A stretch of 64,000 nucleotides of DNA, taken from contig OY986971.1 in assembly GCA_963920575.1 (NCBI GenBank), positions 19,334,492 to 19,398,491 on the forward strand, in the 5' to 3' direction. The notes below the pieces were generated by a model. The model searched no databases. It saw only the letters and a program-made list of their open reading frames with translations, and had not been told where the DNA came from. The stretch is from Narthecium ossifragum (Eukaryota > Streptophyta > Magnoliopsida > Dioscoreales > Nartheciaceae). Both the position numbers and the translations under genes were made by a program. Below, in pieces: positions 9,269 to 55,764 of the stretch (within the stretch, counting starts at the first letter, position 1; each line of letters starts with the position of its first letter).

Positions 9269-11549
9269 TGTCGCGCCCCGATCCGCGAAAGCCCAACCGG
9301 GCCGAGCGACGTGAACCAAAACCTAACAAACTGCGGAAAAATATTGGCGAGGGTTCCCTCTATCCTATTGGTCTCCCTAGCAATTCATCAAACACCCCCA
9401 ATTTAAAACAACAATTAAATAATCAAACCTCGAACCATAGATTACAAACCCAAAAGCAAATAAAAAAAATATACAAGTCCTCGGAGAGGGGAAGATTCGA
9501 ATACAACATTACTCCCGTATGAGACTATCTAACATGGGGTAGAAAAACTGTAAAAGATCACCACCTCTCAGACTCCGCCTGGCGCCGCCGCACTGCCAAC
9601 CAACTGCCCGGTAGGGGCCACAGAAGAAGAACTGACGCCTGCACCGGCAAAACGCAGCCCGGGTAGGAGTGAGCATAAAGCTCAGTAGGGTTCTACAGTA
9701 CGACACACAGAAGGAAGAGGGAAATACAACAGTGTCACCCTCAAGTAAGACCTGGGTGTATACAGGGGTCCCATAACCCCACTGCGTGTCCCTAAGGCCC
9801 ACGATCATGGTCTTCCAGCCGACCCGGTCACATGTCAGGTCACACTCAGTAGCAAGAAACAACACTCCTGACCCACAAGCAGGAACACGACACTACAGGT
9901 GGGAAATGGCACCGCTGAGTAGGCAACTCCTCTACTTCAGAGTCAACACAGTGGAACACCGGCTACACCTCAGCATCCGACTCAAGGCCGACGCGACCTC
10001 TATAATCACCAAGCAACAGGTGTACCAGTCATCTAAGCTTATCATCAAGTTTGACTGGACACCACAATTCGAACCGGGTCCAAACTACCCAACCCCGGTC
10101 CTAGGGCTAGATCCGAGCTTCCAGCCTCGGGACGGCGACCCACAGATCACTCACGCCCTAACCATGCAACTAATGCACAATCGAGAATGTATGCTATGAA
10201 CATACACAGATAGGAGATTTAGCATGCAACAGTATGTTAAGGATAGCATCTAAGTCCAACCGGGTCGCTGCAGCGGTACGACCAACCGCTGCCAGCCGAT
10301 CCACAGCGGGTCCCGGCATTACGACGGTACCACGACCGTCAACTGCGGACTCCTGCAATGGGAAGCAACCCCGAAAACCTTGATAAACAGTAAAATATAA
10401 TATTATATGTTTTGAACATATAATATTATTTAAATCACCAAAATCCTCTACTTACGGGCTAATTGACCCCATCGATCTGACGTCTAAATGATGTCGAATT
10501 CGAGATCCAACTTAGCCACCAGTAGATCAACATACCGGGATCAACATATCCAAAATTCAGAAACATCCAATGGCTATATTAACAGGAAAACACTAATCAA
10601 ATCCGCTAATCAAACTAACTTACCATCTCTTGTTGCAACGCAGCCCACCAGTAAGCAATTCATGACAAATCATAGGAAAATCATACAAATATGAAATCAG
10701 TTGGGTTTGATAGTAGATTCAAAGATCTACAACTCTTATGTTTATCACAACCCAAGAACATGCACGTACAGATCGAAAAACCCACCGTAAACCGGCTGTT
10801 CTTCAAGAACAGCAGAAACCGGAACATCCGAGATTAAACATGCTTAAATCCTACTAAAATCTCAACCAAAGCTTATGAAATTTAAATCAAAAATTATACT
10901 AAGCATGAAGAAGCCAACAACACAAAGAACAACAAGATCTACCGGCTAGATCCAAAGAAAACCCCTAAACTGACTCAGTAGGTAGAAACCTATCGGAAAC
11001 GCTAATCCTCGGCTGATTCCTCGGAAACCAGTCACCAACAAAGCTCCAAACCACACCAGGGATCTTCCTCACGTCGCCACAAATCCAACGAGCTTTGAAA
11101 TGCACAAAACGGTGGCCGGAGGAGGGAGAACGGAGAGGAAGAAGAAGACGGGAGCAAACCGGAAAAACAAGGGAAGGTCGCAGGCTATTTATAGGCTCGA
11201 GTCCGATCGATCGCTCCAGGACCGATCGATCGGACTGGGCCAGGTTAACTCAGTTCGCCTCCTTATCTGGACACGTCGGCCACAGTGACCACCGACACAA
11301 GTACGATGGATCGCTCCAAGGAGCGATCGATCGCACACGGGCCACCAGCTGCCCCAAAAAACGGGCTTCTGGCGCCCGAGCTTGGATCTTTCGATCCCAA
11401 GCCCGCCTAGGGTTCTAGCAAACACGTAAATCAAACATTGGGGCTGTGGGTGCACCACGCGAGTGTGAAACAAACCAATAATGCGCAATTTACCAAATTG
11501 CCCTTGTGGTCTACAACGAGCCACAGGGGTAGAGGGGCAGGTCCTCACA
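9269..11549 (-). mobile_element. Solo LTR A (Tekay-type gypsy)
   Basis: A 2,281-bp LTR that reads tgtcgcgccccg...ggtcctcaca on the plus strand. It is flanked by a perfect 5-bp duplication GGGAG (9264-9268, 11550-11554), with no internal region. It was therefore left by recombination between the two LTRs of a full element. Sense is minus by homology to Gypsy-1. It contains the family's conserved block (9636-9716) and a palindrome-rich promoter region. Confidence 0.92.
11183..11336 (-). promoter_or_regulatory. LTR A promoter: TATA box with palindrome cluster
   Basis: On the minus strand, cctataaatagcc (11183-11195) is a strong TATA box. Immediately upstream (11202-11336) lie four GATCGATC-type sites, including an inverted pair gatggatcgctcc / ggagcgatcgatc. 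The position relative to the LTR ends fits the U3/R boundary. Confidence 0.7.
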
Positions 11550-11620
11550 GGGAGAGACTGCGATCAAAGGAGGAACCTCGAGATCTCGTGGTGACCTAGG
11601 TAGGGGAGGAGGTGGGGTTC
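11550..11620. other. Host fragment between two solo LTRs
   Basis: Seventy-one bases bounded by the GGGAG duplication of LTR A and the GGTTC duplication of LTR G'. They are remnants of the pre-insertion site, contiguous with 9060-9268 and with 42678-42941 once the insertions are removed in thought. Confidence 0.8.
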
Positions 11621-12389
11621 TGTGAGGGCCCGTTCCTGCAAACCGGTCCGATCGCGTTAGGTTAAGGGTCTGGCCTGGTTTGGGCTTGTTTCGCGATCGG
11701 GTTGATCGCAAAGACCCCAGGGGTAATTTGGTAAATTGTTCATTATCGATTGGTTTCACACCCGTGTTGTGCACACACAGCCCTCGAATGATTTATGTGC
11801 TTGTTAGAACCTTAGGCGTGCTTGGGATCGGATGATCCGAGCCCGGGCGTGACAGCTGGTCTTTGGGATTGCTGTGAGCCCAGATGATCGATCAGTCCCG
11901 GACGATCGATCGGTTTCTGGGTCGACACTGACGTTGATGTTTCCTAATAAGGACATGAACCGACCTAGTCTGATTGATCGCTCTGGGAGCGACAGATCGG
12001 ACTTGGGCTTATATAAACCCGCAAGTAGCTCTGTTTCTATCTTTTTCTTCTTCCTCCTTTTCTCTGCTGAGGCTAGGGTTTCGCGTGTAAGGCTGTTCCA
12101 GAGACTTGGAGAGGTCGACAGCAAGGGGAGGAGCAGATCAATACCTCTTCTGCATGGATTAATTGAGGATTAATCATGGATTAGTGTAGAACGGTAGGAT
12201 TTTTCACCTAGGGCTTGTTTATGTGTTCTTTGTTAGTTAGATGTTTGTTTTCTTAATCAATATATGCTAGATGCTTATTAGCTTGCTGAATATCTGATTT
12301 ATGTTTGATTGGATTTTGGTTGGATTTAAACCGTATTTAGGTGAGTTTTTCCTTAATTTATTCCCGGATTTCTGTTCTAGCAGAAACAA
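11621..12389 (+). mobile_element. Solo LTR G', left part (split by the Athila-like element)
   Basis: Starts tgtgagggcccgttcc, the sense 5' end of the Tekay LTR family, and continues at 41149-42672, where it ends ccggggtatgaca (LTR end tgaca). The two parts total 2,293 bp, the family length. The flanks carry a perfect GGTTC duplication (11616-11620, 42673-42677), so this is one solo LTR in the opposite orientation to its neighbours, split by a later insertion. Confidence 0.9.
11883..12020 (+). promoter_or_regulatory. LTR G' promoter: palindrome cluster and TATA
   Basis: gatgatcgatcag, gacgatcgatcgg and gattgatcgctc precede ggcttatataaaccc (12006-12020). The cluster-then-TATA order is the same as in the other LTRs but on the plus strand, in keeping with the inverted LTR. 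Confidence 0.7.
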
Positions 12390-14169
12390 TGATAAGACGT
12401 GAAAAGTGCACAAATCATCCTTTTAACTGGGTCTTGTTAGTCTCCAAGCAATGCTATTTTGATTGTCTTCTCCCTATTTCAGGTATTAGGATCCTTAGCG
12501 AAGATTAGATCAGTGCTAAAATGAACAAATAAAGAACCTGCAAAGTCAAAGGAGCAAAGATGGGCCCTCTTTGACATCAAATTTGTATCTGGTCAGAACG
12601 AACAAGATAATGTATCATATATGGCTGGAAATCTCTTGAAGTCTCGTTTCTCGAGAATTTTACGGTTCGTGATTCCGAGTTTTCTAAAGGAAGTTACGAT
12701 ATTTTTAGTACAAATGGCGTAGTCTGAATGACAAAAGAGAAAATACGCATGAGAAATGATGGATCATCTTTCCCTATAATGATCGATCATTGTACTGTAG
12801 CAGAGATAACAGAGAGCCATGTTTTAAATGATCGATCATTTCCTTTCAAATGATCGATCATCCTCGGGCGCAACCAGGTTTTTGGGATCCAATGATCGAT
12901 CATTTAGGGGTGAAGATCGATCATTTGATAGCAGTTAAGAAAAATCAAAGGCCCAGATCTAATCCGAGTTAAGGGGATACCTAGGCTATAAATTGGCTTC
13001 TTTTAGGGTTTTTGGGGGGCTCTCTAGACTCTTTCTTGGCTGCTTGAAGGTCAAGGAGAGGGAGCACTCCTTCTTAGTTTCTTTTTCCTCTTTTTCACTT
13101 TTCTTTTTAGAATCTTTTGGGAGGAAATCCATGGCGGAAGAGCTTCATCAACCTTCATCTATGGATTAAACCCTCAAGATGAGTAGCTAAACTCCTCGTC
13201 ATAGGATTCTTATGATGTAACTAGGGTTTCTATTAGGGATTTCTAAGATTTAGGGCTTGTATACTTCTTTGAATGGTTTGTATGGCTTGATCTTAATTTC
13301 TTTATGAACTTGGTGTGATTTTATTATTAGTGGATGAATGATTTGTTCCTTTATGCCCTAGATCTAGATCTTGAGCATGTTAGGGCTTGAGATTAGAGAT
13401 TCTCATCAAAACATTCATGCAAGAACTATAGATGTGAGGATTTTCTTCTCAAAATTAAGAGTCTTGTGATGGTCGGACCATTATACGTAATGCTAGAACC
13501 ATTAGGACCAACTCTTAATCCGATATTCATTTTAATTCAAGATTAGGGATTTCGTAGTGCTAGAACCACTACGCTAGTGCTAGAACCACTATGGTAACTT
13601 CTAATCCTCGATACATTCTATTTGGCGACTTCAAGGTGCTAAAACCATCTTGATCTTACACCTAAATCCATATTATACTATTTTCTCGTGATGAATTCAT
13701 CCTAATTAGAGGATTCATTAGCAGTGATCATAACTAATCATTAGGTCACTAACTTTTAGATAATTACTCTCACCGACAATGGATCCTAACCAGAATTTGT
13801 TGAGTGATAGGGAGAACTAACCATTCACCTATCAACCATTTGGAAAACCATTCAGTTTGGTTAACTTGTTCTAATCCTAGGAAGACCTGGTAGAATCATA
13901 GTTATTGATTAAGAATTCCCTAATACCTTTTCTCGTATTTATCAATCATTTAGTGTAAAGTTAGTTTAATTTCAATTCTGAATATTTTTCAGCTTATTGG
14001 TAGGAATACTTAGATTAAGTTTAATAGTTTAATTATTTTCCTACGCATTTTCTGTGAATTCGACTCAGATTCACTGCTATCTACCCACAAAGTAGTTAGT
14101 TTGATTTCGAATATAAATTTGTAATTTTGATCGTGCGCGTTAAGCTGCGGCACTTTTCAAGCGCTATCA
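12390..14169 (+). repeat. 5' LTR of the non-autonomous Athila-like element
   Basis: 1,780 bp, tgataagacg...gctatca. The 3' LTR matches it at both ends, but its middle has been replaced (see 39763-40064). It contains the palindrome/TATA promoter at 12777-12996. Confidence 0.88.
12777..12996 (+). promoter_or_regulatory. Athila-like LTR promoter: (a)atgatcgatcatt cluster and TATA
   Basis: At least five tgatcgatca palindromes lie between 12777 and 12930, several extended to aatgatcgatcatt, followed by ggctataaattgg at 12984-12996. The motif variant differs from the Tekay LTRs but the layout is the same. The region is missing from the 3' LTR. Confidence 0.7.
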
Positions 14170-15856: not shown

Positions 15857-16448
15857 GCTTACATTGTGTCGAGCTCGAGACGTTAAACCAAGCGCTTGGT
15901 GGGAGGCAACCCATCTTTGCTTTGATTTTAATTTGTTTGTTTGAACTTTTCTTAATTGCATGCTTGCTTGTTTTCTAATTATTTGCATGTTCGATTTTAA
16001 TGTGTGCAAGTTGCTCTTTGCTTGATGGTTTGATAATGCCATAATTGTTGTTGCTGAATTTTTGTGTTGACTTAGATTGGGGTGTTCTTACTTCAGTTTA
16101 GATGCCTTGGGGTGTTTAATATTCATATATAAGAAATTAGAGCCTTAATTCTCAGGACTTTATCACATTTCTGGCATTTTGGTGCAAATGATCGATCTTC
16201 ACGTCATCTAATGATTGATCTTTATTAGCATGTCACGTATACAGAACCTGGGTATTACACTGATCGATCTTCATATACATGGATGATCGATCATTTTTGT
16301 TCACCTATGGAGACAAAACATGGTGTTTAAGATGATTGATCATCAATACCTTGAGGATCGATCATTTTCGGGATCACCATGAGGCAGGGACTGGAGTTAA
16401 GTATGATCGATCCTTTCATCTAAGGAAGATCAATCATTTTTGTGCAAA
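15857..16448 (+). other. Post-ORF region with the conserved gggaggcaaccca box and GATCGATC sites
   Basis: gggaggcaaccca at 15901-15913, preceded by agcgcttggt, is the sequence typically found just after the coding region in Athila/Tat elements. Between 16188 and 16440 there are eight or more tgatcgatc-type sites, continuing beyond the Gypsy-1 insertion at 37520-37640. No TATA box follows this cluster. Confidence 0.6.
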
Positions 16449-17636
16449 ACTTGTGTCCCGCCCCGACCCGCGTAGGCCCAACCGGGCCGGGCGACGCGAA
16501 CCGGAACCTAACCTACTGCGGAAATTTTGACGAGGTTTCCCTCTAATCGTAGTGGTTACCCTGGCAAATCATAACCATCCTGTATTATACAAATATTACA
16601 AACCCAAAGACTGAAACTTGATATTTATATACAATCCTCAAATAGGGAAATTATACACACCGCCAGACGCTGCCACGTCACCAAACACCGACCCGGTAGG
16701 GGCGACCGAAGAAGAGCTAGCGCCATCACCTGCAAAATGTAGCCCGGGCAGGAGTGAGCACTAAGCTCAGCAGGGACACTACACTACGACACTCACAAGG
16801 GAGGGAACACAACAGTGTCGCCTCCAAGTTTACCCTAGGTGTATACAAGGGTCCCATAACCCTACCGGAAGTCCATGAACGCAGGCGCAAAACACTGCCA
16901 CTCTCAACAGGACACAGAACGCCGTTTGGCGGGCCAGAATACCGCTGGGCAGGCACTCCTCCTCCCAAGAGTTTAGGAACACCGGACTCCGGCTACACTT
17001 TGGATACAACTTGAAGTCGACACGACCTCTAAACATCGAACAACATGCCTTCAGGTCAAACTAAACCTATCATCGAAAACGACTAAATACTACAAATCGA
17101 GTCCTGGACCAAGCTACCCGCAACAGTCCTAGAGCTAGATCCGGGCTACCCGAAAGCCCTGGATCGGCAACGCCCTACACAGATGCAACTAATGCGCAAC
17201 ACAATGCATGTTATGGACATGCACAGGATAATACAGATAAACATGCAACAGTATGTGATGATATATCAAGCAAGGTCTGGGCACGGCACCCTGCTGGCCC
17301 GGGGTGGTGAACATGAAAATAAGGTCTAGGGAGTTGTTACAGTGGTACCACCACCAACTGCCAACAGTCCACCACAACACCTGCACCGGGAAGCAGCCCC
17401 GCAAACAACAGCTCACAGATAATACAGATAAAGCCCTCGGCGCACACCGGCATGCAAGGCTAGGAAAAGCTGTAGGGCTACCCGCCCGTTTATTCTAAAC
17501 ATCCCGGGAGTCATCACTCCCCTGGTTCACCACTACCCAATTATAGGGCTAACAAGCTTAAACATATGTACAAGGTATTAAGACAGTAAAGAAAACCGTC
17601 ATACAAAGCCCCGCGGCAAAACAAGATACATTTCCT

Positions 17637-17773
17637 CTCTCTGCCATAGTCGGATCGATCCCTTCCCAAGGGAAGGATCGATCCTTCTAATGGCAGAGAG
17701 CAAACTCTCCCTATCGTACCGAGTCCGATCGATCCGTCCTCCCAGGACGATCGATCCGACTCGCGATAGGGAG
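17637..17773 (-). repeat. Two adjacent long inverted repeats in the transcribed part of LTR B
   Basis: Hairpin 1 spans 17637-17700. The outer arms ctctctgccat / atggcagagag enclose ggatcgatcccttcc / ggaaggatcgatcc. Hairpin 2 spans 17707-17773. The outer arms ctccctatcg / cgatagggag enclose gatcgatccgtcct / aggacgatcgatc. Both lie several hundred bases downstream of the LTR TATA box in the sense direction, so they should be in the transcript. More GATCGATC sites continue to 17895. Confidence 0.85.
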
Positions 17774-18216
17774 CGTCCCAGGCTATCCAAGGCATCGGGA
17801 TCGATCGCCCTCACCGGGGGCCGATCGATCCTGCTCGGATCAGCATGCCCAACAAGGAGGGATCGATCCATCTCATAGACGGATCGATCGGTTGGGTTCT
17901 CCGGTAAGCCGACAGCCGAAAAAGTCCACCAAATCCCACCAAAACCTGGGATCTAGTAGTACGAAGCATCACGAATCCAAAACCGAAGAAAATACTACAA
18001 TCTAACATGTATACAATAAGTTCTAAGCATAAGAACACCGACAGCCGGAAAAACTTCCAAAAACCCAAAGAATGTAGGTAGGAATCCCTACCGGAGCAAG
18101 AGCAGCTTCAATCTCAGCTGCTAGGCCATGGATCATCCACGAACTCTTCGAAATCCAGGAATTCTCAGCCCAAGAATTCGGTTTTCCAAAGAGATTCAAG
18201 GAAGAAGGTTCTGTCT

Positions 18217-18470
18217 GTTTTATAGGCAAACGAACCGACTTAGCAGGATCGATCCGTCCAAGGAGACCGATCGATCCAGCCAGGAGAGCGATTGATCCGG
18301 CCAAGGAGACCGATCGATCCAGCCAAGGGAACGATCGATCCAACCAAGAGACCGATCGATCCTTCTCCGAGTCCGATCGATCCGTCCCAAGAGACCGATC
18401 GATCTTTCTCGACGATCCACGTTCCTATCAAAGACCGATCGATCCCTCCAGCAAGGAAGGATCGATCCCT
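18217..18470 (-). promoter_or_regulatory. Gypsy-1 3' LTR promoter: TATA with GATCGATCC cluster
   Basis: Sense cctataaaac at 18217-18226. About 20 bases upstream in the sense direction begins a run of nine or more GATCGATCC-type sites at roughly 20-base spacing (18246-18470). Confidence 0.75.
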
Positions 18471-18753
18471 CTTTTGTAGGAATCCGGACTTGGGTTAAAA
18501 CTTAAACCCAAGCCCGGATCTTTCGATCCCGGGTCCCACTAACCATTCTAGTCAAACATTACCACAAACATGGTCAGTGTGTGCACACGCGGGTGTGAAA
18601 CAAGCCGACAAGGCGCAATTTACCAAATTCCCCTTGCGGCCCACGACGAGCCACAGGAGTAGAGGGACGGGTCCTCACATCCTAATACCCTTATAGGAAA
18701 TCTCGTCCCGAGATTCGATAAGGGTAGGGCTCGGAAGCAAAGAAACAGCTACA

Positions 18754-20288: not shown

Positions 20289-20644
20289 TGTCGCGTCCCG
20301 GCCTAGGAAACCCATTCCGGACCGGTATACGAGGGGAAAACCTACATCTACTGACAACCAACAGCGGAGACAGATACAAGAATAAACAAAAGAAGAAAGT
20401 AATCTAACAATTACTAAACCAAAACTAAACAAGTAACAATATTTACAACTGTCAGAGTTATACAAATTTAAAAATACAATTTAACAAAAAGAAATTACAT
20501 CTTCAGGAGAAGCGCTGATACCCCCACCTGCAAACAACACGGTCCAGGTAGAAATGAGTCAAAGCTCAACAGGGTTCTAATCTACGACACTCACAAGGAA
20601 GGCGACTCCAACCATACTAACTCTATGCCAAGTGCTGAGGCCTG

Positions 20645-21050
20645 CCAGGGACCCCATAAATCCCGTCAATAACCCGGAGGGCACCTGTCCAAAGTATGTC
20701 CTCCGATGGCCACTGCTCAGGGGGTGGTCCTCCTCCGACAGTCCCTGACACAGGGTGGACATGACACTACCCGTAGGACACCCCTCTCCAAGTTTGACTT
20801 CCACACTTGGCGAAACAACCGTGGTTACGACAACCATCTCCCAGCACTCAAAGCACAGAGTCAATACAACCCCTAAACTCCAAATCAAGAGCCTAGTCCT
20901 ACCAGGGTTCCCACACACCCCATCAATACCCCCAGGGTTCCTGTCCATAGTACGTCCTCCAATGCCACTGTTCAAGGGTTGGGCTTTCTCTGATGATCCC
21001 ATACACAGGGTGGACAAAAACGATACCAGTAGGACACCCATGCCGGGGTA
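20645..21050. repeat. Imperfect direct repeat within LTR C
   Basis: A unit of about 140-150 bases occurs twice, about 20645-20790 and 20900-21050. Each copy has a segment like cctgtcca(t/a)agtacgtcctcc, then cacagggtggaca and gtaggacaccc. It is a local duplication within this LTR subfamily. Confidence 0.65.
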
Positions 21051-21528
21051 ATAACGACCACACTTAGCTATTGCTATTGGAGTACTAGGGACAAACGCCC
21101 AACCCACGACAAGCCTATCATGCCTAAAATGCGCAAGAAATCAAAACAAACACAGCAATAGCAACAGACAAAATATAAAGCAGTAAAGCAGGCAAAGATA
21201 ATAATATAACACTATCAACAAACATCACAACAAGGGCACACCTTCGGCCCATTTATACTAAACACTCCCGAGGGTCATGACTCCCTCGGTTCACCACAAA
21301 GCGGTAAAAGAGGTATTACATTTATACTACACAATCCCGGGAGTCACCACTCTCTCGGTTCAACCACAAAGCTGTAAACACACAACAGTTTATAACTATG
21401 CTAGTAAACATGTCAGAAAGCGGTAAATAAAACCATCATAGAGAGCCCCGCGGGCAAAATCGCTAAAACCGCGTACATACGAAGCCCCGCGGGCAAAACG
21501 ACATCAAACTTGCGATTGGGTGAAAGTT

Positions 21529-21890
21529 GGATCGATCCAACACCTTTGGATCGATCCGACTTACCCTCGGATCGATCCAACTTGTCCTTGGATCGATCCG
21601 ACTCACCCTGGGATCGATCCAACTTACCCTTGGATCGATCCGACTAGGAAAAACCAAGAAAAACAAACGAGGTCGATCGATCCAACTCAGCCCTCGGATT
21701 GATCCGACCAAAACCCGGGATCGATCCAACAACCCCTTGGATCGATCCGGCTAAGAAAACCAAGGCAAACCGCGCAGTGCCACCCTCATGCACTGTACCT
21801 GGGACAAGTGGGATCGATCCAACTATCATCTTGGATCGATCCGACTCCCAAGCTCGGATCGATCCAACACTCTTGGATCGATCCCACCCG
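21529..21890. repeat. GGATCGATCC array in LTR C
   Basis: About fourteen copies of ggatcgatcc, usually with alternating aac and gac suffixes and about 20-25 base spacing, including the 16-base perfect palindrome gttggatcgatccaac. It lies downstream of the LTR TATA box in the sense direction, as do the hairpins of LTR B. Confidence 0.85.
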
Positions 21891-22237
21891 GCCCTCCGGC
21901 CAGCTTCCGACGGCAATCACGGCCAGAAAGCTGAGCCAAACATCACCAAACTTGGTGAGTAGGAGGTGCCGAAGCTCACGAAGTTACTCATGGCTTCAAA
22001 ACCGGAAAACACCGATTATGCAAGAAGATCTACACAAAACAACTCAGAAAACCGGCGAGAACGACGATGAACAGGAGACCAATCCAGCGAATGCCGTAGG
22101 TAGGAACCCTATCTCACAAGAGCTGCTTCAATCCGCGAAGCAACGCCTTGGATCTTCCTATCCCCTTCCAAGGAATCGCCGGGAACGGGCTCGGACGCGA
22201 CGAGATCGGGAAAAGAGAAGAGAAGAAGTCCGGCGTC

Positions 22238-22350
22238 CACTCTTATACAGACGCCTCAGTGCGCTTCGGATCGATCCGACTCCACTAGCGGCAACTCTTC
22301 CCTAGTGCGAGTTGGATCGATCCGAAGTGGAGTTCGGATCGATCCAACCA
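22238..22350 (-). promoter_or_regulatory. LTR C promoter: TATA with palindromes
   Basis: Sense ctgtataagagtg at 22238-22250. cggatcgatccg and two further GGATCGATCC sites lie upstream (22267-22350). Confidence 0.65.
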
Positions 22351-22563
22351 GCGCTGGGAAGAGAAATTGGGCCCGCTTCAAGCCCAATTTTGGATCTCTC
22401 GATCCCGGGGTCCATCTAACCATCCTACTCAAACACATATACCAAAACAAGGCTTGTGTGTGTACACGCGGGTGTGAAACAAACCCACAAGGCACAATTT
22501 ACCAAATTGCCCTTGCGGTCAACGACGAGCCACAGGAATAGAGGAACGGGTCCTCACACGCCG

Positions 22564-23622: not shown

Positions 23623-24791
23623 TGAAGGTCCAAGAGGGGGGTGAATTGGACTCTTTTCGAAAATCTAGTTTAATGGAAAAATCAGATAGTAGAGAAACAA
23701 CACTTTAAATGCTTGTAGATGAGATGAAAATAAAGCAAGGAGGCATGCAAGAATACAGTAAAGAGGGTTAGAGAGATGACACCGATTTATAGTGGTTCGA
23801 CCCAACTCTTGGTCTACGTCCACTTCTCTCAAGGCTCTCCTTGAGGTTCCACTACTTGCAAATCCCTTACAAGCTTTTCCTCCAAGCTTCCTGGTGCTTG
23901 GTGACCTTACAATCACAGCCACTTGCAGTTTGAACAACTCTCAAAATACTTCTTCACACTTGAAAAAGATTTACAAAGGTTTTAGCTCAAGGAGAATAAG
24001 TAGAAATCTTTCCTAGAACTTGCTCAAATGATCTCAATAATAATGATAAAAGTTCTGGCAAATTTACATCAAGGAACTACTTATAGATGGGCTTCAACCA
24101 GCTCAACAAGGAGGTCCAACGGCTCCATGCAACTCTCCAATGGCTAGTTTTTTACTTGCGCGCTGCTGGCGGTCGATCCATGCATCGTCCGTCACGTATA
24201 AAAAACTCAGCCTTTTTGCTCTGACGGTCGATCCACGCATCGTCCGTTACGCTCACGGTCGACCGTGACATCGACCGTCACATCGTCCGTGAGCCTCTGT
24301 TGAGAAGGTCGCTTCCTAGGGTCGATGCTCGGATCGACCGTCGCTCCTTGACTTTTCTTCATATATGCGCCACGGTCGACCGCCACATCGACCGTCGCAT
24401 CGTCTGTCAGCCTCTGTCAAGAAAAGCGTTTCCCACGATCGATGCACCGATCGACCGTCGCGTCTTTACTTTCTTCATTGATACGCCACGGTCGACCGCC
24501 ACATCAACCGTCGCATCGTCCGTAAGCCTCTGTCAAGAAAAACGCTTCCGACAGTCGATGCACCGATCGACCGTCGCATCAATACGCATATAGCCAAGTA
24601 TGAACCATTCACTACGGTCGATCCATGGATCGACCGTCACATTCCCACGGTCGATCCTTGCATCGACTGTCAGTACAAAAATAACTTAAACATTGAATTT
24701 TAGATTTCCAATTAAAGGGGTAATAAATATTAAACATATATTTTATCATTTAATGTATATTGGCATCATCAAAACAAGGTTAGGATCAACA
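23623..24791 (-). repeat. SIRE 3' LTR
   Basis: 1,169 bp. Nearly identical to the 5' LTR at 31963-33066 but about 65 bases longer. The difference lies mostly in the cggtcga palindrome region near 24230-24270 and near 24550-24590. Confidence 0.95.
24077..24680 (-). promoter_or_regulatory. SIRE 3' LTR promoter: TATA and cggtcgaccg cluster
   Basis: Sense catctataagtag (24078-24090) is preceded upstream by a cluster of about fifteen to twenty cggtcgatcc, ggtcgaccg and gatcgaccgtc sites from 24172 to 24680. The layout repeats that of the gypsy LTRs although the element belongs to a different superfamily. Confidence 0.75.
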
Positions 24792-24805
24792 ATCTCCCCC
24801 TTTTT
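24792..24805 (-). other. SIRE polypurine tract
   Basis: Sense aaaaagggggagat lies directly before the 3' LTR start, the expected primer for plus-strand synthesis. Confidence 0.85.
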
Positions 24806-25308
24806 GATGATGACAATCCTTTTAAATGTGATAATAAAATATCTTGACTCCCCCTTAACCAATGCATCATTTTCTTTAAAAAAAAATGTGTTCTAAAGTT
24901 AATTTTCAAGATGTACACAAGTCATATATCTTTAAAATGATATTAAATGTTCCATTCAAGATATGTTGACATAATAGTTTGGATTTTAGCATGTTCACTT
25001 CTTTTCAATAACAACATTTAAGCTTTCATGAAGTGATTTCATATTGAATTATAACATTGTATTAATACATCATAGCAATAACCAAATACATCTCTATTTC
25101 ATTCAAAAGATTTCAACATTTCATACAACAAAATCATTTGGAAAACTTGAAATTACAAGACTTTCATTTCAAAAACAAGGTTTTCCAAAATACAAAAGTA
25201 AAGATCTGAAATGTAGAAATGTAGGGCTATTGTTCACTTCATCACACTTTTCTCCCCCTTTGACATTATCAAAAAGAGCTAAGGAGGATGGGGAGTTAGG
25301 ATCAATCA

Positions 25309-26538: not shown

Positions 26539-26670
26539 TGTGCACCAGCTTGTTAGGGTTTTGAGTGGGAAGGAGGAGATCGGTTTGAGAGAGAGGGGGA
26601 GGAGTAGTGGCTGCGAGCGTTTTGAGGAGCTAGGGTACGGTCGAACCAGTGAGGAATGAAGGGTTTGATC

Positions 26671-27013: not shown

Positions 27014-27152
27014 TCCCAGAAAGTGAGTTTTGAAATTCAATTTAAAATCATTTTTAAATCAAAACATCACAAATCTTTGCAAGCACGTGTAACTAAATAT
27101 TAGGAGACAAAAATCACTCATTAATCATGATATTAATTTAATTTATCAAAAT

Positions 27153-40064: not shown

Positions 40065-40673
40065 AAACTTGGTGTGATTTTATTATTAGTGGATGAATGA
40101 TTTGTTCTTTTATGCCCTAGATCTAGGTCTTGAGCATGTTAGGACTGGAGATTAGAGATTCTCATCAAAACATTCATACTAGAACCATGGATGTGAGGAT
40201 TTTCTTCTCGAGATTAAGAGTCTTGTGATGCTAGAACCATTATGACCAACTCTTAATCCGTTATTCATCTTAATTCAAGATTAGAGATTTCGTAGTGCTA
40301 GAACCACTACGCTAGTGCTAGAACCACTAGGGTAACTTCTAATCCTTGATACATTTTATTTGACGACCTCAAGGTGCTAAAACCATCTTGATATTACACC
40401 TAAATTCATATTATACTATTTTCTCACGATGAATTCATCCTAATCAGAGGATTCATTAGTAGTGATCATAGCTAATCATTAGGTCACTGACTTTTAGATA
40501 ATTACTCTCACCGACAAGGGATCCTAACTGGAACTTGTTGTGTGATAGGGAGAACTAGCCATTCACCTATCAACCATTTGAAAAACCATTCAGTTTGGTT
40601 AACTTGTTCTAATCCTAGGAAGACCTGATAGAATCCTAATTATTGATTAAGAATTCCCCGGTACCTTTTCGCG

Positions 40674-41148
40674 TATTTATCAATCATTTAGTGTAAAATT
40701 AGTTTAATTTTAATTCTGAATCTTTTCTCAGCTTATTAGTAGGAATACTTATATTGAGTTTAGTAGTTTAATTATTTTCCTACGCATTCCCTGTGAATTC
40801 GACTCGGATTCACTGCTATCTACCACCAAAGTAGTTAGTTTGATGTTCGAATATAAATTTGTAATTTTGATCGTGCGCGTTAAGCTGCGACAGTTTTCAA
40901 GCGCTATTCATGTATTTATCAATCCTTGAGTATAAAGTTAGTTTAATTTCAATTCTGATTCGTTTATCAACTTATTGGTAGGAATACTTAGATTGAGTTT
41001 AGTAGTTTAATTATTTTCCTACGCATTCTATGTAAATTCGACTCGGATTCACTGTTATTTCCCCCGAAAATAGTTAGTTTGAAGTTCGAATATAAATTTG
41101 TAATTTTGATCATGCGCGTTAAGCTGTGGCACTTTTCAACCTCTATCA
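40674..41148 (+). repeat. Tandem duplication of the Athila-like LTR end
   Basis: Two copies of about 238 bases, each from tatttatcaatc to the LTR end near gctatt / ctctatca, containing the gaattcgactcggattcact and gcgcgttaagctg segments. They differ at several positions. Confidence 0.88.
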
Positions 41149-42672
41149 AACAGCTATATTATAACTTTTTTTTACGGCTTGTATGTGCATGATCTTAGTT
41201 GATCTTCAACATAAAAGTTGTAAATCTCTGAGTTATCGTTTGATTTCAACTGGTTTTACATTTTTCAGATTTTTGTATGATTGTTGGTGAATTAAATGGA
41301 CAGGCTGTGGAGAACATAGCAACCAATTTAATTAGTGAATTTAAGTAGTTTTTCTTTATCTAATTGATCAGATATTTGGATATGTGATTCGGAATATGTC
41401 ACTAAGTATGCATATCCCGTTTGATATTAATTGGATGGTTAGATCGAAAGTTATGATTTTCCGAAGTTGGAAGTTCGTTTGCTTTAATTCGATTAATCGA
41501 GATTTTCATTATTATTTGTTATTATATATGCGTAGGCCCCGTGTGTGGCATGCGGGTGAACCAAGGGCGTTACGCCCCTTGGGATGTGTAGAATAAGTAT
41601 TCGTTTTCCTTAGACCATTGCTATGTATACCCTTTTGGTGAGTTGTAGGCTACGCCCAGACTTGTATCTTATTTGGCATACTGTTGCATGCCCATACTTC
41701 TATATTTGTGACTGAGCATTGCATGCATATGACTGCATTAGTAGCATAAGGTTTGGATGTGGGTGATGGGTTTATCGCCGATCCGAGGCTCTCGAGCAGC
41801 TCGTATCTAGCCGTAGGACCGAGGCTGGGTAGCAAGGTCTAGGATTCGATTTATTATGATAATATGATGTTATCGAGGTTATTGTCTAGTTGGCTGTGAT
41901 TTCTCTGTTTGAGGTTTAGAGGTCGTGTGGTTTCACCAAAGCCAGGTGCTAAGGATGGTTGTCGATACGTTCCCGACGTGGTCCCCAAGTGTGGTGATCC
42001 TGCTTGGGTAAGGGTGATCCCGCATGGTACCTTTTCTCCTGCTGGTGCATAGGGTGATCTTGGTAACATGTTCAAGAGAGTGGTTCATGACCGGAGCCCT
42101 TGGATCATCGATGGGTTATGGGACCCTTGGCATACCTTAGACTTGGCGGGGCAACGACACTATTGTTGTTTTTCTCCTGCTATTGTGACGTAGAATAGAA
42201 TCATGCTGAGCTTATCGCTCACTCATACCCGGTCTGCATTTGTAGGTGCAGCCGTCAGTTCTTTTTCCGTTATACTAGCTGGATATGCTTTTTTTGGCGC
42301 AGTGACTTCAGGAGGCTCTCGAGGATCCTGAGGTGTTGGCAGCTTCAGCAGTTACGTTTGTTATAAATTACTTTTGATAGATGTATTAAATGTATAATTT
42401 TCCTCTTCGAGGATTAGATGTTTATGAATCTGTATTTGAGGAATAAATTGCATAACTCTGAGGGTTGTATAATTAAGTAATCTTGTTTACTTTGATATTA
42501 ATCTGGAATTGTTATAGATAGTAGTTTATTAGAATTTATTATGCTGCCACTCTGATAGAATTGTTTCAAATTAGTTGTGATAATTGTTAGCTAAATGCGC
42601 CATAGATGGATTAAATAGATTAGAAACCCTCACGCCCCGGATTGGATGGGTTTTCTGGGTCGGGGTATGACA
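41149..42672 (+). mobile_element. Solo LTR G', right part
   Basis: Continuation of 11621-12389. It includes the family block in this orientation (gctgagcttatcgctcactc... at 42207-42253) and ends tgaca before the GGTTC duplication at 42673-42677. Confidence 0.88.
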
Positions 42673-43743: not shown

Positions 43744-43917
43744 TGGTCGACCGTCGCATCATCCGCGAGATCGACCGTCGTGCTCAATATACTCACGGTC
43801 ACATCATCCGCTAGATCGACCGTCGCATCATCTGCGAGATCGACCGTCGCATCATCCGTGAGATCGACCGTCGCAACATCCGTGAGATCGACCGTCGCAA
43901 CATCCGTGAGATTCACC
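43744..43917. repeat. 24-bp minisatellite of gatcgaccgtcgcatcatcc units
   Basis: Six to seven imperfect tandem units of cgcatcatccgygagatcgaccgt. The period is a multiple of three, so long frames exist on both strands (for example SVRSTVAT repeats), but they are by-products. It is the palindrome cluster of the Athila-A promoter expanded in tandem. Confidence 0.85.
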
Positions 43918-44082
43918 ATGAGCCTCTGTCAAGAAAAAGACTTCTTAGGGTCGATGCGAGGATCGAACGCCTCTTTTCCAAATAATGTTAAACAGTTGGC
44001 GGTCGACCGTCGGATCGACCGCGAGCATATAACGGGTCCAAGCCTAACTCGAGTTTCTCAACTTTTGGAGCCTATAAATAGG
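43918..44082 (+). promoter_or_regulatory. Athila-A LTR promoter: shared module and TATA
   Basis: gagcctctgtcaagaaaaag and ttagggtcgatgcgaggatcga match the SIRE LTR module. They are followed by ggtcgaccgtcggatcgacc and by cctataaatagg at 44071-44082. Confidence 0.7.
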
Positions 44083-46761: not shown

Positions 46762-46953
46762 ATGGAGCCCAACAATGAGATCTTGGAACAACTTCGACAA
46801 GTTAAGGTAAACCTCCCTCTTATGCATGTTATTAAGCAAGTGCCTAACTATGCCAAAGTGATTAAAGATTTATGTATTATGAAGAGACGACATCATGTAA
46901 AGAAAATAAAATTCTTAACAGAGCAGGTTAGTGCACTTCTTCAGCATAGGATT
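46762..46953 (+). pseudogene. Athila-A protease leader, cut by LTR E
   Basis: LPLMHVIKQVPNYAKVIKDL and KKIKFLTEQVSALLQ are the conserved sequence before Athila protease (compare LDAIRQIPSYAKFLNDL in Athila-3). The frame then runs into the LTR E insertion. The rest of Athila-A pol is absent from the window. Confidence 0.85.
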
Positions 46954-48261
46954 TGTCACGCCCCGACCCGCGTAGGCCCAACCGGGCCGGACCACGCGAA
47001 CCGGAACCTAACTAACTGCGGAAAAGTTTTGGCGAGGGTTCCCTTTAATCTACTGGTCTCCCCAAATAATCTTCAAAACACCCTTATTAAAGCAATAATT
47101 AAAGAAACCTCAACATATATAGTAAAATATTTCATTTCGTCAAACTCCTCAAAAAGGGTAAATTGTACATCACATTCCCGTAGGAGGATAACTACTACAA
47201 AACGGGTAAACTGAAGATCATCGCTCCTCAAATTCCGCCAGGCGCCGCCGTGTCGCTAAACTCCTGCCCGGTAGGGGCCACTAAAGTGATACTAACGCCT
47301 GCACCTGCAAAACACAACCCGGGTAGGAATGAGTAACTAAACACAGCAAAGAAACTACACTACGACTCACACAAAGAAGGAGGGAACGCGACAGTGTCCC
47401 CCTCAAGCAAAGCCTGGGTGTACACAGGGGCCCCATAACCCCATCGCCTGTCTCTGAGATGCATAGTCATGGTCTTCCAAAAGAACTGGTCACATGACGG
47501 GTCACGCTCAGTAAGCAGGAAGCCAACACTGCTGGCAGCAAATGGCACCGCTGAGTAGGCACACCCTCTACTCAAGAGTCGTAGAAACCGGACACCGGCT
47601 ACACCTCAGAACCCGGCTCCAGGCCGACACGACCTCTAAACCTTGATCAACACGAGTATTCTAGTCATGTAAGCCTATCATCAATATCAACAGAAATACT
47701 ACCATTCAAACTTAGACCATGCTACCTAGCCACGGTTCTAGAGCTAAATCTGAGCTACCCGAAGGCCTTGGATCGGTGATCAACCCATTGACCACGTCCT
47801 AATTTTATGCAACTAATGCACAATCAGATGCACGCTATGAACACACGCAGATAAGCAAGTAAGCATGCAACACATGTGATGCTATAATAAACAAAGTCTG
47901 GGCCCAGCACCTTGCCGGCCCGGGGTGGTGAACAGATAAGTAAGTCAAGGAACTATTACAGAGGTAACACCTCCAACTGCATCCAGTTCACAAAAGAACA
48001 GCATGTTACAGGAAGCAACCCTGGCAAACACCGCTAACAATACAACATGCTATCTACACATTCCGGGAGTCATCACTCTCTATGTTCACCACTACCCCTC
48101 ATTATGGGGCAAAAATGCTTAACAATATGTATAAGGTAAAAAGGGATAAAGAAAATCCGTACATGCGAAGACCCGCGGGTAAAAACCATTGAAAAGATCT
48201 CTCAGCCACCAAAGAGATCGATCTTATCCACCAAAGAAGATCGATCTTCTTAGTGTTCGGA
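46954..48261 (-). mobile_element. LTR E (Tekay-type), truncated
   Basis: tgtcacgccccgacccg start and the family block at 47296-47376. It lacks the last kilobase, including the promoter and the cctcaca end. Its left flank is ggatt; no right duplication is available. Two agatcgatctt sites (48212-48243) are the remains of its palindrome region. Confidence 0.82.
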
Positions 48262-48882
48262 AGTCCCCGTCCCAATGTGTCTCTGCGAAGAATTGACCGA
48301 AAACTTGTCACAGGGCACGGTTGAGTTGGACTTCTATTACAACTCGGATTTCCTGAATTAATTCTGGCAGTCTTATTCCGAGCGCAACTGGGCCCAATCA
48401 GTTCGGAATTTGAAACCTTGTTCAACTCAAACATTGTAGATTAGGAAGTCCTCTGTTATATCCTGAATATTTCATTATATTTAGACTTATCGAGAATATT
48501 TGACGAATATTCTTCTAAACATCGACGGACCAGTTTTTCAGGACATGTATATCTTTATCTTCTTCAAACCTGGTATCACTCCATCTGGAGTCTCATAAAG
48601 TGTCCAACATTAAAGTTGTAGTTCTTGAAGGCTTCTATCCCTTGCTAAAGTTTCAGAATATTCGGACTTATACAGAGTTTCTGGAGAATATTCTCCTGAC
48701 AGGCGACGAAACAGTCTTTATGCATAAATTCATCTTTTTAGGCGAATTTCTTGTATTTCTTCTCAAATCATGATCAAACCTGAAATCAACTAACAAACTT
48801 TTAAATACAACTACTCTAGGCCTAACAAAGATAAATTAAGGGGTTTGATTACGAATATTTAATGACTCATCAAGACACCTTC
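48262..48882 (-). mobile_element. Internally deleted Athila relic
   Basis: Bases 48265-48320 match 56040-56100 of Athila-3 (ORF region, tgcgaagaattgac...cagggcacggt). Bases 48325 onward match 63645-64000 of the Athila-3 5' LTR (cgagcgcaactgggcccaat, cgacggaccagttt). The right end, sense tgtcttgatgagtc, is a plausible LTR start abutting Gypsy-2 integrase. Order and orientation fit an Athila copy that lost everything from its 3' ORF to the middle of its 5' LTR. Confidence 0.6.
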
Positions 48883-53312: not shown

Positions 53313-54522
53313 AGTTGTCACACCCCGACCCAGAAAACCCATCCAGGCCAAGACGTGAGGGTTCCAATTACTATTCACATCCAAACTCGAACGATACAAA
53401 GCGAAAAACAGAGATAATTTAAACGGTTTAACTTCCAAGAGTAAAGCTATAATTCAATTAAAAAAACATCAGGTTGTACAATTTAAACATCAGATACAAA
53501 TTCTTAACAAACTCCTCCAAGGGAAATATTATACATTAACCCAAAATTCCTTAAAGCATGTCTATAATATACATAATCTATCAAAAGTACAACTATTCTC
53601 CCACAGCAACCTCAAGCACCTATGGAAGTCATTGCGCCACCAAAAGTGGATCCCGCCGGCTCTGCTGAAGAAGAATTGGCGCCTGCACCTGCAAACACAG
53701 CTCGGGTAGGAGAGAGCGACAAGCTCAGTAGGGTTCTACTCTATGGCACACTGAAGGGAGGAAAACAACAACTGTGATGTCTCCCCGCTCAAGTCTAAGG
53801 AATGTCACGGGGTCCCACAACCCCTATCGATGTCCCAAGGGCTCCTGCCATGAAACCTCTCTCTTAAACAAGTTACCAGGAGGCCACGAAACAATAACAT
53901 GCAGGATCACCCTTACCCAAGCAGGATTCCCATGCATTGGGGACCCACGTCAGGAACACATCGACATCCATCCTTAGCACTTGGGATTGGGGAGACAACA
54001 CGACCTCTAAACCTCAAAGTAATATGACCAAAGCCAACTACATCATATCCTCGATGACATGAAGATTCCAATGATACAATCACGTCCTAAACCTTACTAC
54101 CCAGCCACGGTCCTAAGGCTAGATCCGAGCTACAATGCATGAACCTATGCAAACATGTAACCTCGTTGTCTCTATATGCGACAAGATCAATTATAAGTTC
54201 AACAGTTATACAATAGCCCTCGGCACTTGTCGGCAACGGGCTAAGGTTCTACAATACCACGTAAGCTAGCACTCATAGCTAGCTAACGGCTTGGCAAGCA
54301 ATAAGCATTTAAGTCTACCATCGAACTAGGTATTTAAATGCAAGTCAACCCACAAATTCGTCAAAGAGGGTAAGCGCACACTTCAATTCTCAATCTCAAT
54401 CACAATCCATTGAAAACTCCGTGACAACAACGTGCATGCTTCGTTACATGATTGAGTATCTATCATGAATGAATAACCAATCAAAGGAAGCCAGAAAACA
54501 CCATTCAGGGGCTCACGATCGA

Positions 54523-54815
54523 TGCGACGGTCGATCCGACGGTCGACCTTGAGACCTGAAAAGGGGAAAAGCACATGGGCCTCGGTCGATCGGGACATCG
54601 ACCCTGGGAAGCCTAGGAGACAGAGCCTCACGGTCGATCCGACGGTAGACCGTGAGGTAAAGTAGAAAGAATGGTAAGAATCCACGGTCAATCAGAGCAT
54701 CGACCCTGGGTGACCCAAAATGAGACAGAGCCTCACGGTTGATGTGACGGTCGACCGTGAGACCAAAAAGAAGCTTGCCAACACCTGACGGTCGATCCAA
54801 CGGTCGACCGTCATG
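54523..54815. repeat. cggtcga palindrome cluster in LTR F
   Basis: Sites such as gatgcgacggtcgatccgac, acagagcctcacggtcgatc and acggtcgaccgtca, ten or more in all. They resemble the SIRE and Athila sites more than the GATCGATCC of other Tekay LTRs. Located downstream of the LTR TATA in the sense direction. Confidence 0.8.
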
Positions 54816-55330
54816 ACTGGTGCACAGTTCCTACGAACTGTGCCAGAAATCTCATTTCTTGGATTTGATCTATCAAAGCTTATTGGAAATCGATGAAACT
54901 TTGCAGGCACACGTAACTAATGATGGGGAAACTATTGATATGAAGAAAACATGATTTTGATGGTTATATCTCAAATCTACTTCGAAACGACCAAAAACTG
55001 ACAAACCGGCTATAATACGAGAATCGTATGATAAAATACGAAAACCAAATGGTAGAAATCTATAGCACCCATGTATAAAGCTACACAACATTCTACTATA
55101 TAAACCTACATCAAAAACACAATAAACCTATCCTAGGTGAACCCAATCATACGATCGGGGTAGAAACACCTACTTGATCAAGTAGGGCAGCTTCTCAACG
55201 CATTCCCCAAGCTCTATCACCAAGATCCGCTCCTCGAAGATCGCGCCTCCAAGCCCTAGCTCAGCCGGTAGGAGAGAGAGAGAGAACGAGAGGAGAGGGA
55301 AGAAAGAGAAAGGAAAGAGAGAGAAGGTCA

Positions 55331-55434
55331 GGGTATTTATAGAGATCAGGATCTGATCTCGGTCGTCCGATTCGATCTTTCCCGATCGAGCTCCAATCTT
55401 TCCCGATCGAGCTCCGATCTTTCGATCGAAGGCA
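55331..55434 (-). promoter_or_regulatory. LTR F promoter
   Basis: Sense ctctataaataccc (55331-55344). The upstream sites are weaker: two cccgatcgagctcc repeats and gatctttcgatcgaag (55377-55434). Confidence 0.6.
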
Positions 55435-55764
55435 CCCTTAAGGTTTTAATCAATCACATATATCAATCCTAGGCCGTGTGTGCGTTACGCGGGTGTGAAA
55501 TCGACCACCAGGCATAATTTACCAAATTGCCCTTGGGGTCACAAGAGAAATACGATCAACCTAATCGCACCCGACGCGAAACCAAATCAACAAGAAACAT
55601 CCCTCGACCCACGTGGTCGAGCTTGGTTAGAGGAACGGGTCCTCACAGTAATTGGCGCGCATGCATTACGATCACTACAACACCCATACAACAGAAAGAT
55701 CGTCACTTTGTAGAAATCCATGTCTCTAAAGGATACTAAAATAATAAAGCCATAAAAATTGCCA

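Follow-up and report, generated by a model that had tools for sequence, protein, structure and literature searches.

Retroelements of the window and their palindrome clusters

The window, which is the whole stretch of 64,000 nucleotides of Narthecium ossifragum DNA that was analysed, contains Tekay-like and Athila-like elements with the gypsy domains PF08284, PF17917 and PF17919, the Tekay-like ones also with a Tf2-1-like SH3 domain. The Tekay-type lineage is that of Del. A Copia element, SIRE, is present as well. All of them carry clusters of a palindromic core word, GRTCGAYC, i.e., GATCGATC, GGTCGACC and the mixed forms GGTCGATC and GATCGACC.

The Tekay-like solo LTR A (9269-11549, TSD GGGAG) has three GATCGATC copies in its U3, 12 bp before the TATA box (11205-11332, minus strand). 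In its inverted relative, LTR G', a GATCGATC pair is located 99 bp before TATATAAA (11886-11911, plus strand). LTR B (16454-18679) is a Tekay-like 3' LTR. Its U3 holds nine GATCGATCC copies, 23 bp before TATA and spaced by 21-23 bp for most steps (18247-18467, minus strand), and eight GATCGATC copies form a second array about 335 bp downstream of TATA (17653-17889, minus strand). B and LTR D (35198-37502) are the LTR pair of a single element with the TSD ACTTG. The U3 array of D (37070-37290, minus strand) is the non-independent partner of that of B, and the downstream array of D (36464-36700, minus strand) is a copy of 17653-17889. Solo LTR C (20289-22558, TSD CGCCG) has three GGATCGATCC copies in its U3 before a relaxed TATAAG (22269-22344, minus strand). 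Its downstream array comprises 14 copies, two of them overlapping, with flanks that are mostly (T/C)GGATCGATCC(A/G) (21530-21883, minus strand). LTR E (46953 to about 48701, upper end set by eye) carries a GATCGATC pair 23 bp apart (48216-48246, minus strand), and LTR F (53318-55541) a GGTCGACC-type module with seven copies (54529-54809, minus strand). A, B, C, D, F and G' have LTR sequence in common.

AthL, AthA and gyp3 are putative members of the Athila lineage. The 5' LTR of AthL (12389 to about 14170) has five TGATCGATCA copies in its U3, 65 bp before TATA (12781-12922, plus strand), and a PBS-like stretch is found at about 14180, with a similar one at about 62630. An internal TGATCGATCA-type cluster of five copies (16190-16412, plus strand) continues with two copies beyond the Tekay insertion (37531-37632, plus strand); it was split by this nested insertion, and the empty site is preserved in the sampled stretch L021. 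In the U3 of AthA, a GGTCGACC-type module with eight copies lies 53 bp before TATA (43745-44020, plus strand). The start of this U3 matches AthL (82% over 147 bp); the cluster instead aligns with SIRE. The Athila-like gyp3 (RT 57750-59198, IN 56969-57790) has a GGTCGACC-type module after pol (56470-56770, minus strand; the exact words lie within 56470-56670, and the aligned unit extends to about 56770). A second one with five copies is in the presumed leader (62259-62447, minus strand), downstream of the PBS-like stretch at about 62620-62650. The homologous leader in stretch L015 has a GATCGATC pair in place of this module. Gyp3-like pol adjoins AthL-type internal DNA in stretches L017 and L021.

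SIRE (23623-33066) has Ty1/copia gag and pol, including PF14223, PF00665, PF07727 and related domains, and its assignment to the Sirevirus lineage is based on the env-position ORF and the label given in the original prediction. The 3' LTR (23623-24791) contains in its U3 a GGTCGACC-type module array of 11 GRTCGAYC copies (three GGTCGACC and eight mixed forms) before TATAAG (24171-24656, minus strand). The seven copies in the 5' LTR (31963-33066) form the non-independent partner array (32513-32931, minus strand), as SIRE1 and SIRE2 are the LTR pair of one element with the TSD CTGGT. Between pol and the env-position ORF, there is a cluster of seven CGGTCGACCG-type copies (26807-27008, minus strand), whose spacers are unrelated to the SIRE LTR module (z 0.7). 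Directly downstream is the ORF itself, a putative env of 469 aa from stop to stop with PF20167 (25309-26718, minus strand). A homologue search with this ORF gave 5755 candidates, none of which scored.

The original prediction had spoken of unrelated LTR families. This description is not confirmed for all of them: B and D belong to the same element, as do SIRE1 and SIRE2, and A, B, C, D, F and G' are related. On the same grounds, full independence of the ten LTRs named there was rejected.

Abundance of the word, TATA boxes and published precedents

GRTCGAYC occurs 127 times in the window, and 50 shuffles gave a mean of 2.8 and a maximum of 7. Among the 256 palindromic 8-mers of the window, GATCGATC ranks first (71 seen, 1.1 expected) and GGTCGACC second (18 seen, 0.5 expected). 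The imperfect palindromes GGTCGATC and GATCGACC account for 38 of the 127 matches. When a cluster was defined as at least two matches with gaps of at most 130 bp, GATCGATC formed 11 and GGTCGACC four, and every other palindromic 8-mer formed one at most. In the whole genome, CGGTCGACCG was found 17,948 times versus 478 for the reversed control pattern, a figure which also reflects element copy number. A chance origin of the clusters is ruled out by the shuffles and the reversed word. Scanning IMG/VR gave no match for the module word and one contig, L001, for triple GATCGATCC.

A sample of 200 kb of preset genome stretches, eight without window homology and 12 others, was divided by distance from window-homologous DNA. 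The 78.2 kb lying no more than 700 bp from such DNA contained 132 palindrome words (control word, 5), and the remaining 121.8 kb contained 14 (control word, 13). By stretch, the eight without homology held five words and eight reversed controls, the other 12 held 141 and 10; as this grouping was defined by homology to the motif-rich window, the size of the difference is inflated. The palindrome clusters named in the original prediction are present, as supported by shuffles and 8-mer enrichment, and an equal density in ordinary DNA was not observed in these 200 kb (5 vs 141 words). Clusters beyond those named are 16190-16412 with 37531-37632, 17653-17889 with 36464-36700, 21530-21883, 26807-27008, 48216-48246, 54529-54809, 56470-56670 and 62259-62447.

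The TATA test covered 18 of the 19 clusters, all except the pair at 37531-37632. Six of the 18 are followed by a strict TATA[AT]A within 101 bp, at distances of 12-101 bp (A, G', AthL, B, D and AthA). When TATAAG is allowed, the number rises to nine, as judged by eye, through C, at a distance of about 22 bp, and the two SIRE LTRs, at about 86 bp. Neither spelling occurs within 101 bp downstream of the other nine. Looser spellings would bring in a few more: the gyp3 post-pol cluster is followed by TATTTAAA at about 97 bp, and the downstream arrays of B and D by TATAAT at about 108 bp. LTR F had also been listed with a cluster before its TATA box; exact GRTCGAYC is absent there, and the cluster at 54529-54809 is more than 500 bp downstream of that TATA. 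In 11 Athila-type U3 clusters, the distance from cluster end to TATA is 64-65 bp five times, 53 bp in AthA and 87 bp in L019; in the remaining four, one of them truncated where its stretch ends, no TATA[AT]A is found over 150 bp. A constant distance between cluster and TATA is not general. The proposed layout of a cluster before a TATA box is seen in the nine LTRs with a strict or relaxed box and is narrower than the range of positions of the arrays, and its Sirevirus form had already been published (PMC2829016).

This published form is the repeated motif (RM) box of Sireviruses, multi-copy CpG-rich palindromes in U3 upstream of TATA with extra copies upstream of the env gene and the Vitis consensus CGGTCGACCG (Bousios et al. 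2010; PMC2829016). In the available text of that paper, RM boxes are described as Sirevirus-specific and absent from classic elements. SIRE agrees with them in its Copia gag and pol, at least eight copies with the CGG-CCG core, the cluster upstream of TATA (as TATAAG) and the pre-env copies, and its word is identical to the Vitis consensus. Unlike the RM boxes as described there, arrays are also found here in Tekay-like and Athila-like Ty3/gypsy elements, which by their gypsy domains are not Copia Sirevirus hosts, and in R/U5, leader and post-pol positions. Many are GATCGATC arrays without the CGG-CCG core (A, B, C, D, E, G' and AthL); the CGG-CCG type is found in AthA, F and gyp3. Maize Sireviruses, according to the portions available, have foldable palindrome clusters in the LTR regulatory region with a different core, CACCGGAC...GTCCGGTG (PMC10760457, PMC5311732). 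In 2023, the Copia palindrome was also reported to be the commonest motif of structured regions in Helitrons, so that there is a precedent for two superfamilies with one palindrome (PMC10760457). Del LTRs have a variable CpG-rich stretch in their 5' part and sometimes a second one, and eudicot Del groups are without CpG islands; unlike for the arrays here, the accessible text names no palindrome or repeated word (PMC4029996).

Conservation, spacing and sharing of the arrays

In ten pairwise comparisons of orthologous arrays, 559 of 597 core positions are identical versus 1672 of 2472 spacer positions. The core is ahead in all ten despite the CpG within each core, with core identities of 88-100% and spacer identities down to 59-77%. 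Alignment of the module across elements gave agreement in 604/702 comparisons for motif columns and 2996/4846 for other columns. The arrays of AthL, L005 and L017 have six sites in matching columns (core 142/144), and the bases beside the core are, almost throughout, T..A, A..T and G..C, respectively, so that they change together at nearly every site. Flank switching is mixed in L007, L021a, L019 and L021b. For 140 GATCGATC sites in 21 clusters (at least three sites each, second LTR copies dropped), flank agreement within clusters is 0.582, versus a mean of 0.340 and a maximum of 0.384 in 300 permutations. Unalignable clusters within one element also tend to share flanks, with 0, 1, 4, 6 and 15 of the 56 other comparisons attaining the same-element value.

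Spacing was analysed in 15 of the 19 clusters, entered by hand, with D, the SIRE 5' copies and the pair at 37531 omitted and the overlapping match at 21671 merged. Steps of 19-24 bp make up 34 of 76 (null mean 9.0, maximum 20, 5000 runs) and occur in 12 of the 15 clusters (null mean 6.2, maximum 12). The genome sample has 108 steps, of which 44 measure 20-23 bp and none 24-28 or 33-38 bp. A Rayleigh test for helical phasing at 10.5 bp was strong, yet a period scan showed no specific peak. Therefore, we restrict the claim to a preferred step near 20-23 bp. In the B/D pair, CpG change affected 1/18 sites in motifs versus 28/98 outside clusters (p = 0.04) and 8/36 non-motif sites in clusters (p = 0.24). 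The SIRE pair gave 0/9 versus 5/44 and 0/6, respectively, and per base, 3/72 motif positions and 25/941 non-CpG spacer positions changed. The evidence for a slower CpG decay inside motifs of LTR pairs is weak, and we do not count it as support.

Most GTCGACC-type clusters of SIRE, AthA, gyp3 and F can be aligned with one another as a single module of roughly 100 bp. Judged by this alignment, the module is passed by descent or exchange between the Copia element SIRE and several Ty3/gypsy LTR, leader and post-pol sites. The GATCGATC arrays of Tekay and Athila type gave no pair with z > 4 among 56; two pairs beat all 60 shuffles, where about one is expected. With L011:9709-9943 counted as U3, the Tekay-Athila U3 comparison gave 0/64 such pairs, and a comparison of Athila GATCGATC U3 with the module class gave 1/64 (L011:9709 with AthA, z 4.7). 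The internal cluster L017:6611-7004 matches the U3 cluster of L019 (z 8.9). The earlier statement that clusters do not align between superfamilies thus applies to the GATCGATC arrays of Tekay and Athila and fails for the GTCGACC class. As the GTCGACC module is common to Copia and Gypsy by descent or exchange, the repeated acquisition of an enhancer proposed earlier is supported for that class; the GATCGATC arrays are unalignable outside the word.

Some arrays are tandem, with periods near 21, 24 and 116, and array counts are not independent because arrays are copied along with their elements. Both would suit simple tandem repeats without function that grew by chance in LTRs and were spread by transposition. 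This explanation, already disfavoured, is very improbable: one core recurs in unalignable arrays (Tekay-Athila 0/56), the unrelated spacers of the SIRE LTR and pre-env clusters surround a common core, and cores are far more identical than spacers (88-100% versus 59-77%).

A candidate factor and its alternatives

Since the GATCGATC arrays are unalignable and the core is kept over the spacers in 10/10 comparisons, the shared trans-acting factor of the original prediction is favoured for them, as a putative factor. We consider it fairly probable, from the sequence patterns, that the clusters are arrays of candidate binding sites for a dimeric factor acting on retroelement promoters. A symmetric (dimeric) sequence-specific protein, or a few related proteins, would bind GRTCGAYC arrays, and element families would vary in the bases adjoining the core. 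Binding would activate transcription or keep the promoter from being silenced, and internal promoters may be served by the clusters in post-pol and leader positions. We lean towards a host-encoded rather than an element-encoded factor because the core is common to the Tekay, Athila and SIRE types and is also found in the consensus of Vitis Sireviruses.

The arrays fold well as RNA (z -5.0 for B, -9.6 for the SIRE LTR, -5.2 for AthL and -6.9 for SIRE pre-env); hence, many of these observations would also suit a role in structure. Palindromes would then be kept for transcript pairing or cruciforms, with a role in RNA packaging or stability or as small-RNA templates. The transcript includes the U3 of the 3' LTR, mutual pairing also predicts co-changing symmetric flanks, and palindrome-rich LTR regions of maize Sireviruses are reported as small-RNA hot spots (PMC5311732, PMC10760457, as far as available). 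We nevertheless regard this role as unlikely. The fold scores are not independent evidence, because any array of a self-complementary word folds well, and AthA reaches only z -1.9, with 8 of 200 shuffles as good. The preferred step of 20-23 bp is not predicted, the 38 of 127 matches of the GGTCGATC/GATCGACC form are imperfect palindromes, and a structure peak is reported to be absent from maize Ty3 elements in the available part of PMC10760457.

The switching flanks, and their sharing among unalignable clusters of one element, would also be expected if a retroelement-encoded protein bound the arrays, lifted silencing and co-evolved with them, by analogy to VANDAL elements. VANC targets are short motifs in tandem arrays in non-coding VANDAL DNA, which diverge jointly inside a copy and change together between related copies (PMC5735166, available text); those elements are DNA transposons with a known binding protein, whereas the arrays here are in retroelements. 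The extra ORF of SIRE directly behind a cluster would fit such a protein. Among 17 window ORFs of at least 200 aa, no DUF1985 or DUF287 match was found at E 0.001, a weak negative because ORFs below 200 aa and split genes were outside the scan. The core common across superfamilies points instead to a host factor, and we judge an element-encoded anti-silencing protein improbable.

Within the preferred reading of a dimeric factor, a more far-reaching version is possible but doubtful. Copia and Gypsy elements may have converged on one dimeric system and trade the module, and the whole set of U3 and internal sites may shift its flanks together with the core fixed. The pattern would then be the footprint of co-evolution between sites and factor, with a specificity that drifts or depends on the paralogue.

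Apparently new are the Ty3/gypsy carriers, the cross-superfamily module and the three orthologous Athila arrays with nearly fixed cores and co-switching flanks. Such arrays make the old question of who reads the Sirevirus palindromes testable. Elements could acquire new expression patterns if Copia and Gypsy swap U3 modules. A single factor serving retroelement superfamilies that are unrelated would, if true, be one control point for much of the mobile DNA of a plant and a candidate target of host defence.

Nested elements and independent cases

The window is densely filled with nested plant-type LTR retroelements (host assembly 379.4 Mb, contig 9). Copia (SIRE, PF07727) and Gypsy elements (RVP_2, RT_RNaseH) were told apart by Pfam. 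The names Tekay, Athila, and SIRE are labels of the original prediction; the Gypsy lineage names Tekay and Athila come from features such as the PBS, and we take them as an assumption. The Athila-like element (5' LTR, AthL, from 12389; likely 3' LTR at 39443-41150; flanks AACAA and AACAG) is the host of a nested Tekay-like insertion. The latter (16454-37502, minus strand, LTRs B and D, TSD ACTTG) contains solo LTR C (TSD CGCCG) and the SIRE element (TSD CTGGT). LTR A is also a solo LTR (TSD GGGAG). Because B and D are the LTRs of one element, as are the two SIRE LTRs, they are non-independent cases, and A, B, C, D, F, and G' have common LTR sequence. Full independence of the ten listed LTRs is thus rejected.

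The second Athila-like LTR lacks the U3 cluster and TATA; at 39751-40066, their place is taken by about 300 bp, of which about 145 bp match a SIRE LTR (82%). About 239 bp are tandemly duplicated near the end of an Athila-like LTR (40665-41146), and LTR G' and the U3 of LTR A form an inverted pair at 11190-12013 (71.5% identity over 323 bp). LTRs E (46953-48701) and F (53318-55541) bracket one Tekay-like internal region, match each other poorly, and have no common TSD; together they are possibly an inter-element recombinant. The ORF at the SIRE env position (25309-26718) carries PF20167 (putative plant transposon protein), and a protein search with it scored no homologue. Near the left end of the window, a 110-bp tandem duplication (4320-4544) lies outside the palindrome clusters. 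A run of 200 N (8321-8520) is probably an assembly gap.

Abundance of the word and its position relative to TATA

All palindromes of the original prediction are covered by GRTCGAYC. The clusters are real, as this word occurs 127 times in the window against a mean of 2.8 (maximum 7) in 50 dinucleotide shuffles of it. Among the 256 palindromic 8-mers, GATCGATC ranks first (71) and GGTCGACC second (18), forming 11 and 4 clusters, respectively, and every other one forms at most one. Genome-wide, CGGTCGACCG was counted 17,948 times versus 478 for its reversed control, with a contribution from element copy number. We also sampled ten contigs, taking 20 preset stretches of 10 kb each, which gave 146 GRTCGAYC versus 18 reversed words. 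Eight stretches without window homology held 5 and 8, and the remaining 12 held 141 and 10. The 78.2 kb lying no more than 700 bp from window-homologous DNA contained 132 GRTCGAYC, versus 14 in the other 121.8 kb (control word, 5 and 13); both splits use homology to the motif-rich window, which inflates the contrast, and retroelements that differ from those of the window are counted in the second class. The refuting condition of the original prediction, equal motif density in random intergenic DNA, was thereby checked on this 200-kb sample and did not refute it. Among the matches listed for three closely spaced GATCGATCC, the only IMG/VR contig was L001 (4662-4718).

A TATA box had been proposed to follow the clusters. 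This was examined in the direction of transcription for 18 of the 19 window clusters and applied to half of them. Strict TATA[AT]A was found within 101 bp downstream in six (A, G', AthL, B, D, and AthA, a second Athila-like U3), and the relaxed TATAAG in three more (LTR C and both SIRE LTRs). Neither form occurred within this distance in nine: the downstream arrays of B, D, and C, the E pair, F, SIRE pre-env, Athila-like internal, and the post-pol and leader clusters of gyp3, an Athila-like element. Looser TATA spellings lie near three of these nine. Window and sample together gave 11 Athila-type U3 clusters. The distance from cluster end to TATA is 64-65 bp in five (AthL, L007, L017, L021b, L011:5547), 53 bp in AthA, and 87 bp in L019. 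The other four, namely two L005 clusters, L021a, and L011:9709 (truncated where its stretch ends), lack TATA[AT]A over the next 150 bp.

Two classes of clusters

Palindromes with up to 1 mismatch were masked together with 3 flanking bases, and spacer similarity was judged against a null in which the spacers were shuffled by two-base blocks. Among the SIRE LTR, AthA, F, gyp3 post-pol, and gyp3 leader, which carry the GTCGACC module, 7 of 10 pairs reached z 5.4-19.0, with 0/200 shuffles as high. Weaker pairs were AthA-F (z 2.8, 5/200), gyp3 post-pol versus leader (2.0), and F versus gyp3 leader (0.6). With sample copies, z exceeded 4 in 23 of 28 module pairs; 5 of the 28 are pairs inside one family or element. 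Part of the shared unit is a non-palindromic stretch resembling GAGCCTCTGTC, for which 12 of 13 window matches (at most 1 mismatch; shuffle mean 1.4) lie in module clusters. The GATCGATC clusters of Tekay and Athila types did not align (0/56 pairs with z > 4), nor did GATCGATC clusters with the module class (0/64 and 0/56, the last becoming 1/64 after relabelling one cluster). The proposal that clusters are unalignable between superfamilies is right here for GATCGATC between Tekay and Athila types and wrong for the module. Judged from these alignments, the two classes have different histories. The SIRE pre-env cluster has the same word as the SIRE LTR and unrelated spacers (z 0.7).

The U3 regions of AthL and AthA begin alike (82% over 147 bp); despite this, AthL carries TGATCGATCA and AthA the module. 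L011 again has the AthA type, there with a module-word variant. In its gyp3 leader, the window has the module, whereas the homologous position of L015 holds a pair of GATCGATC. These swaps make the two word classes look interchangeable by position. The module runs against transcription in SIRE and with it in AthA, F, and gyp3, as derived from the strands.

Tekay-like LTR insertions adjoin Athila-type clusters at 16412-16454 (41 bp away) and in L017 at 7004-7053 (about 48 bp), by targeting near arrays or by chance. L021 shows the former site empty.

Conserved cores and a candidate dimeric protein

In orthologous arrays, core identity exceeded spacer identity in 10/10 pairs compared; the sums (559/597 versus 1672/2472) are descriptive, as pairs have rows in common and a site needed the word in only one row to be picked. 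When the module was aligned across elements, agreement was 604/702 in motif columns and 2996/4846 in others. The clearest example is the trio AthL, L005, and L017, whose six sites occupy identical columns; identity is 142/144 in the core, 59-67% in spacers, and 46-54% in the two-base flanks. The bases next to the core are almost throughout T..A in AthL, A..T in L005, and G..C in L017; exceptions are a core mismatch at the first and A at -1 at the last AthL site, one G at +1 in L005, and two T at +1 in L017. For 140 GATCGATC sites in 21 clusters, flank agreement inside clusters was 0.582 (permuted mean 0.340, maximum 0.384), to which tandem duplication contributes. Same-element clusters with unalignable spacers tend toward common flanks: of 56 other comparisons, those reaching the same-element value numbered 0 for C, 1 for Athila, 4 for SIRE, 6 for B, and 15 for gyp3. 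Flanks are mixed in L007, L021a, L019, and L021b. The preferred step is 20-23 bp (44/108 sample steps), and a 19-24 bp step occurs in 12 of 15 window clusters (null mean 6.2, maximum 12 in 5000 runs).

A symmetric core, joint symmetric flank change, the 20-23 bp step, and the U3 or pre-ORF position are as expected of dimeric-protein site arrays, and the arrays may well be sites for a dimeric DNA-binding protein. A real rival is that the palindromes are kept for nucleic-acid structure, and 4 of 5 arrays fold much better than shuffles.

Bousios 2010 places Sirevirus palindromic repeats 5' of TATA and of ENV (CGGTCGACCG in Vitis) and calls them Sirevirus-specific versus classic retrotransposons (PMC2829016); in contrast, we find word clusters also in Ty3/gypsy elements. 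Maize Ty3 elements are reported to lack a structure peak, but the Copia palindrome is also reported in Helitrons (PMC10760457), and Del LTRs have CpG islands (PMC4029996). Among the matches listed (open-licence titles and abstract starts), there was no prior report of a GRTCGAYC-type word in Ty3/gypsy or of a cross-superfamily module, which is a weak absence. If a dimeric protein binds arrays of the symmetric core, this may serve activation, anti-silencing, and internal promoters of these elements.
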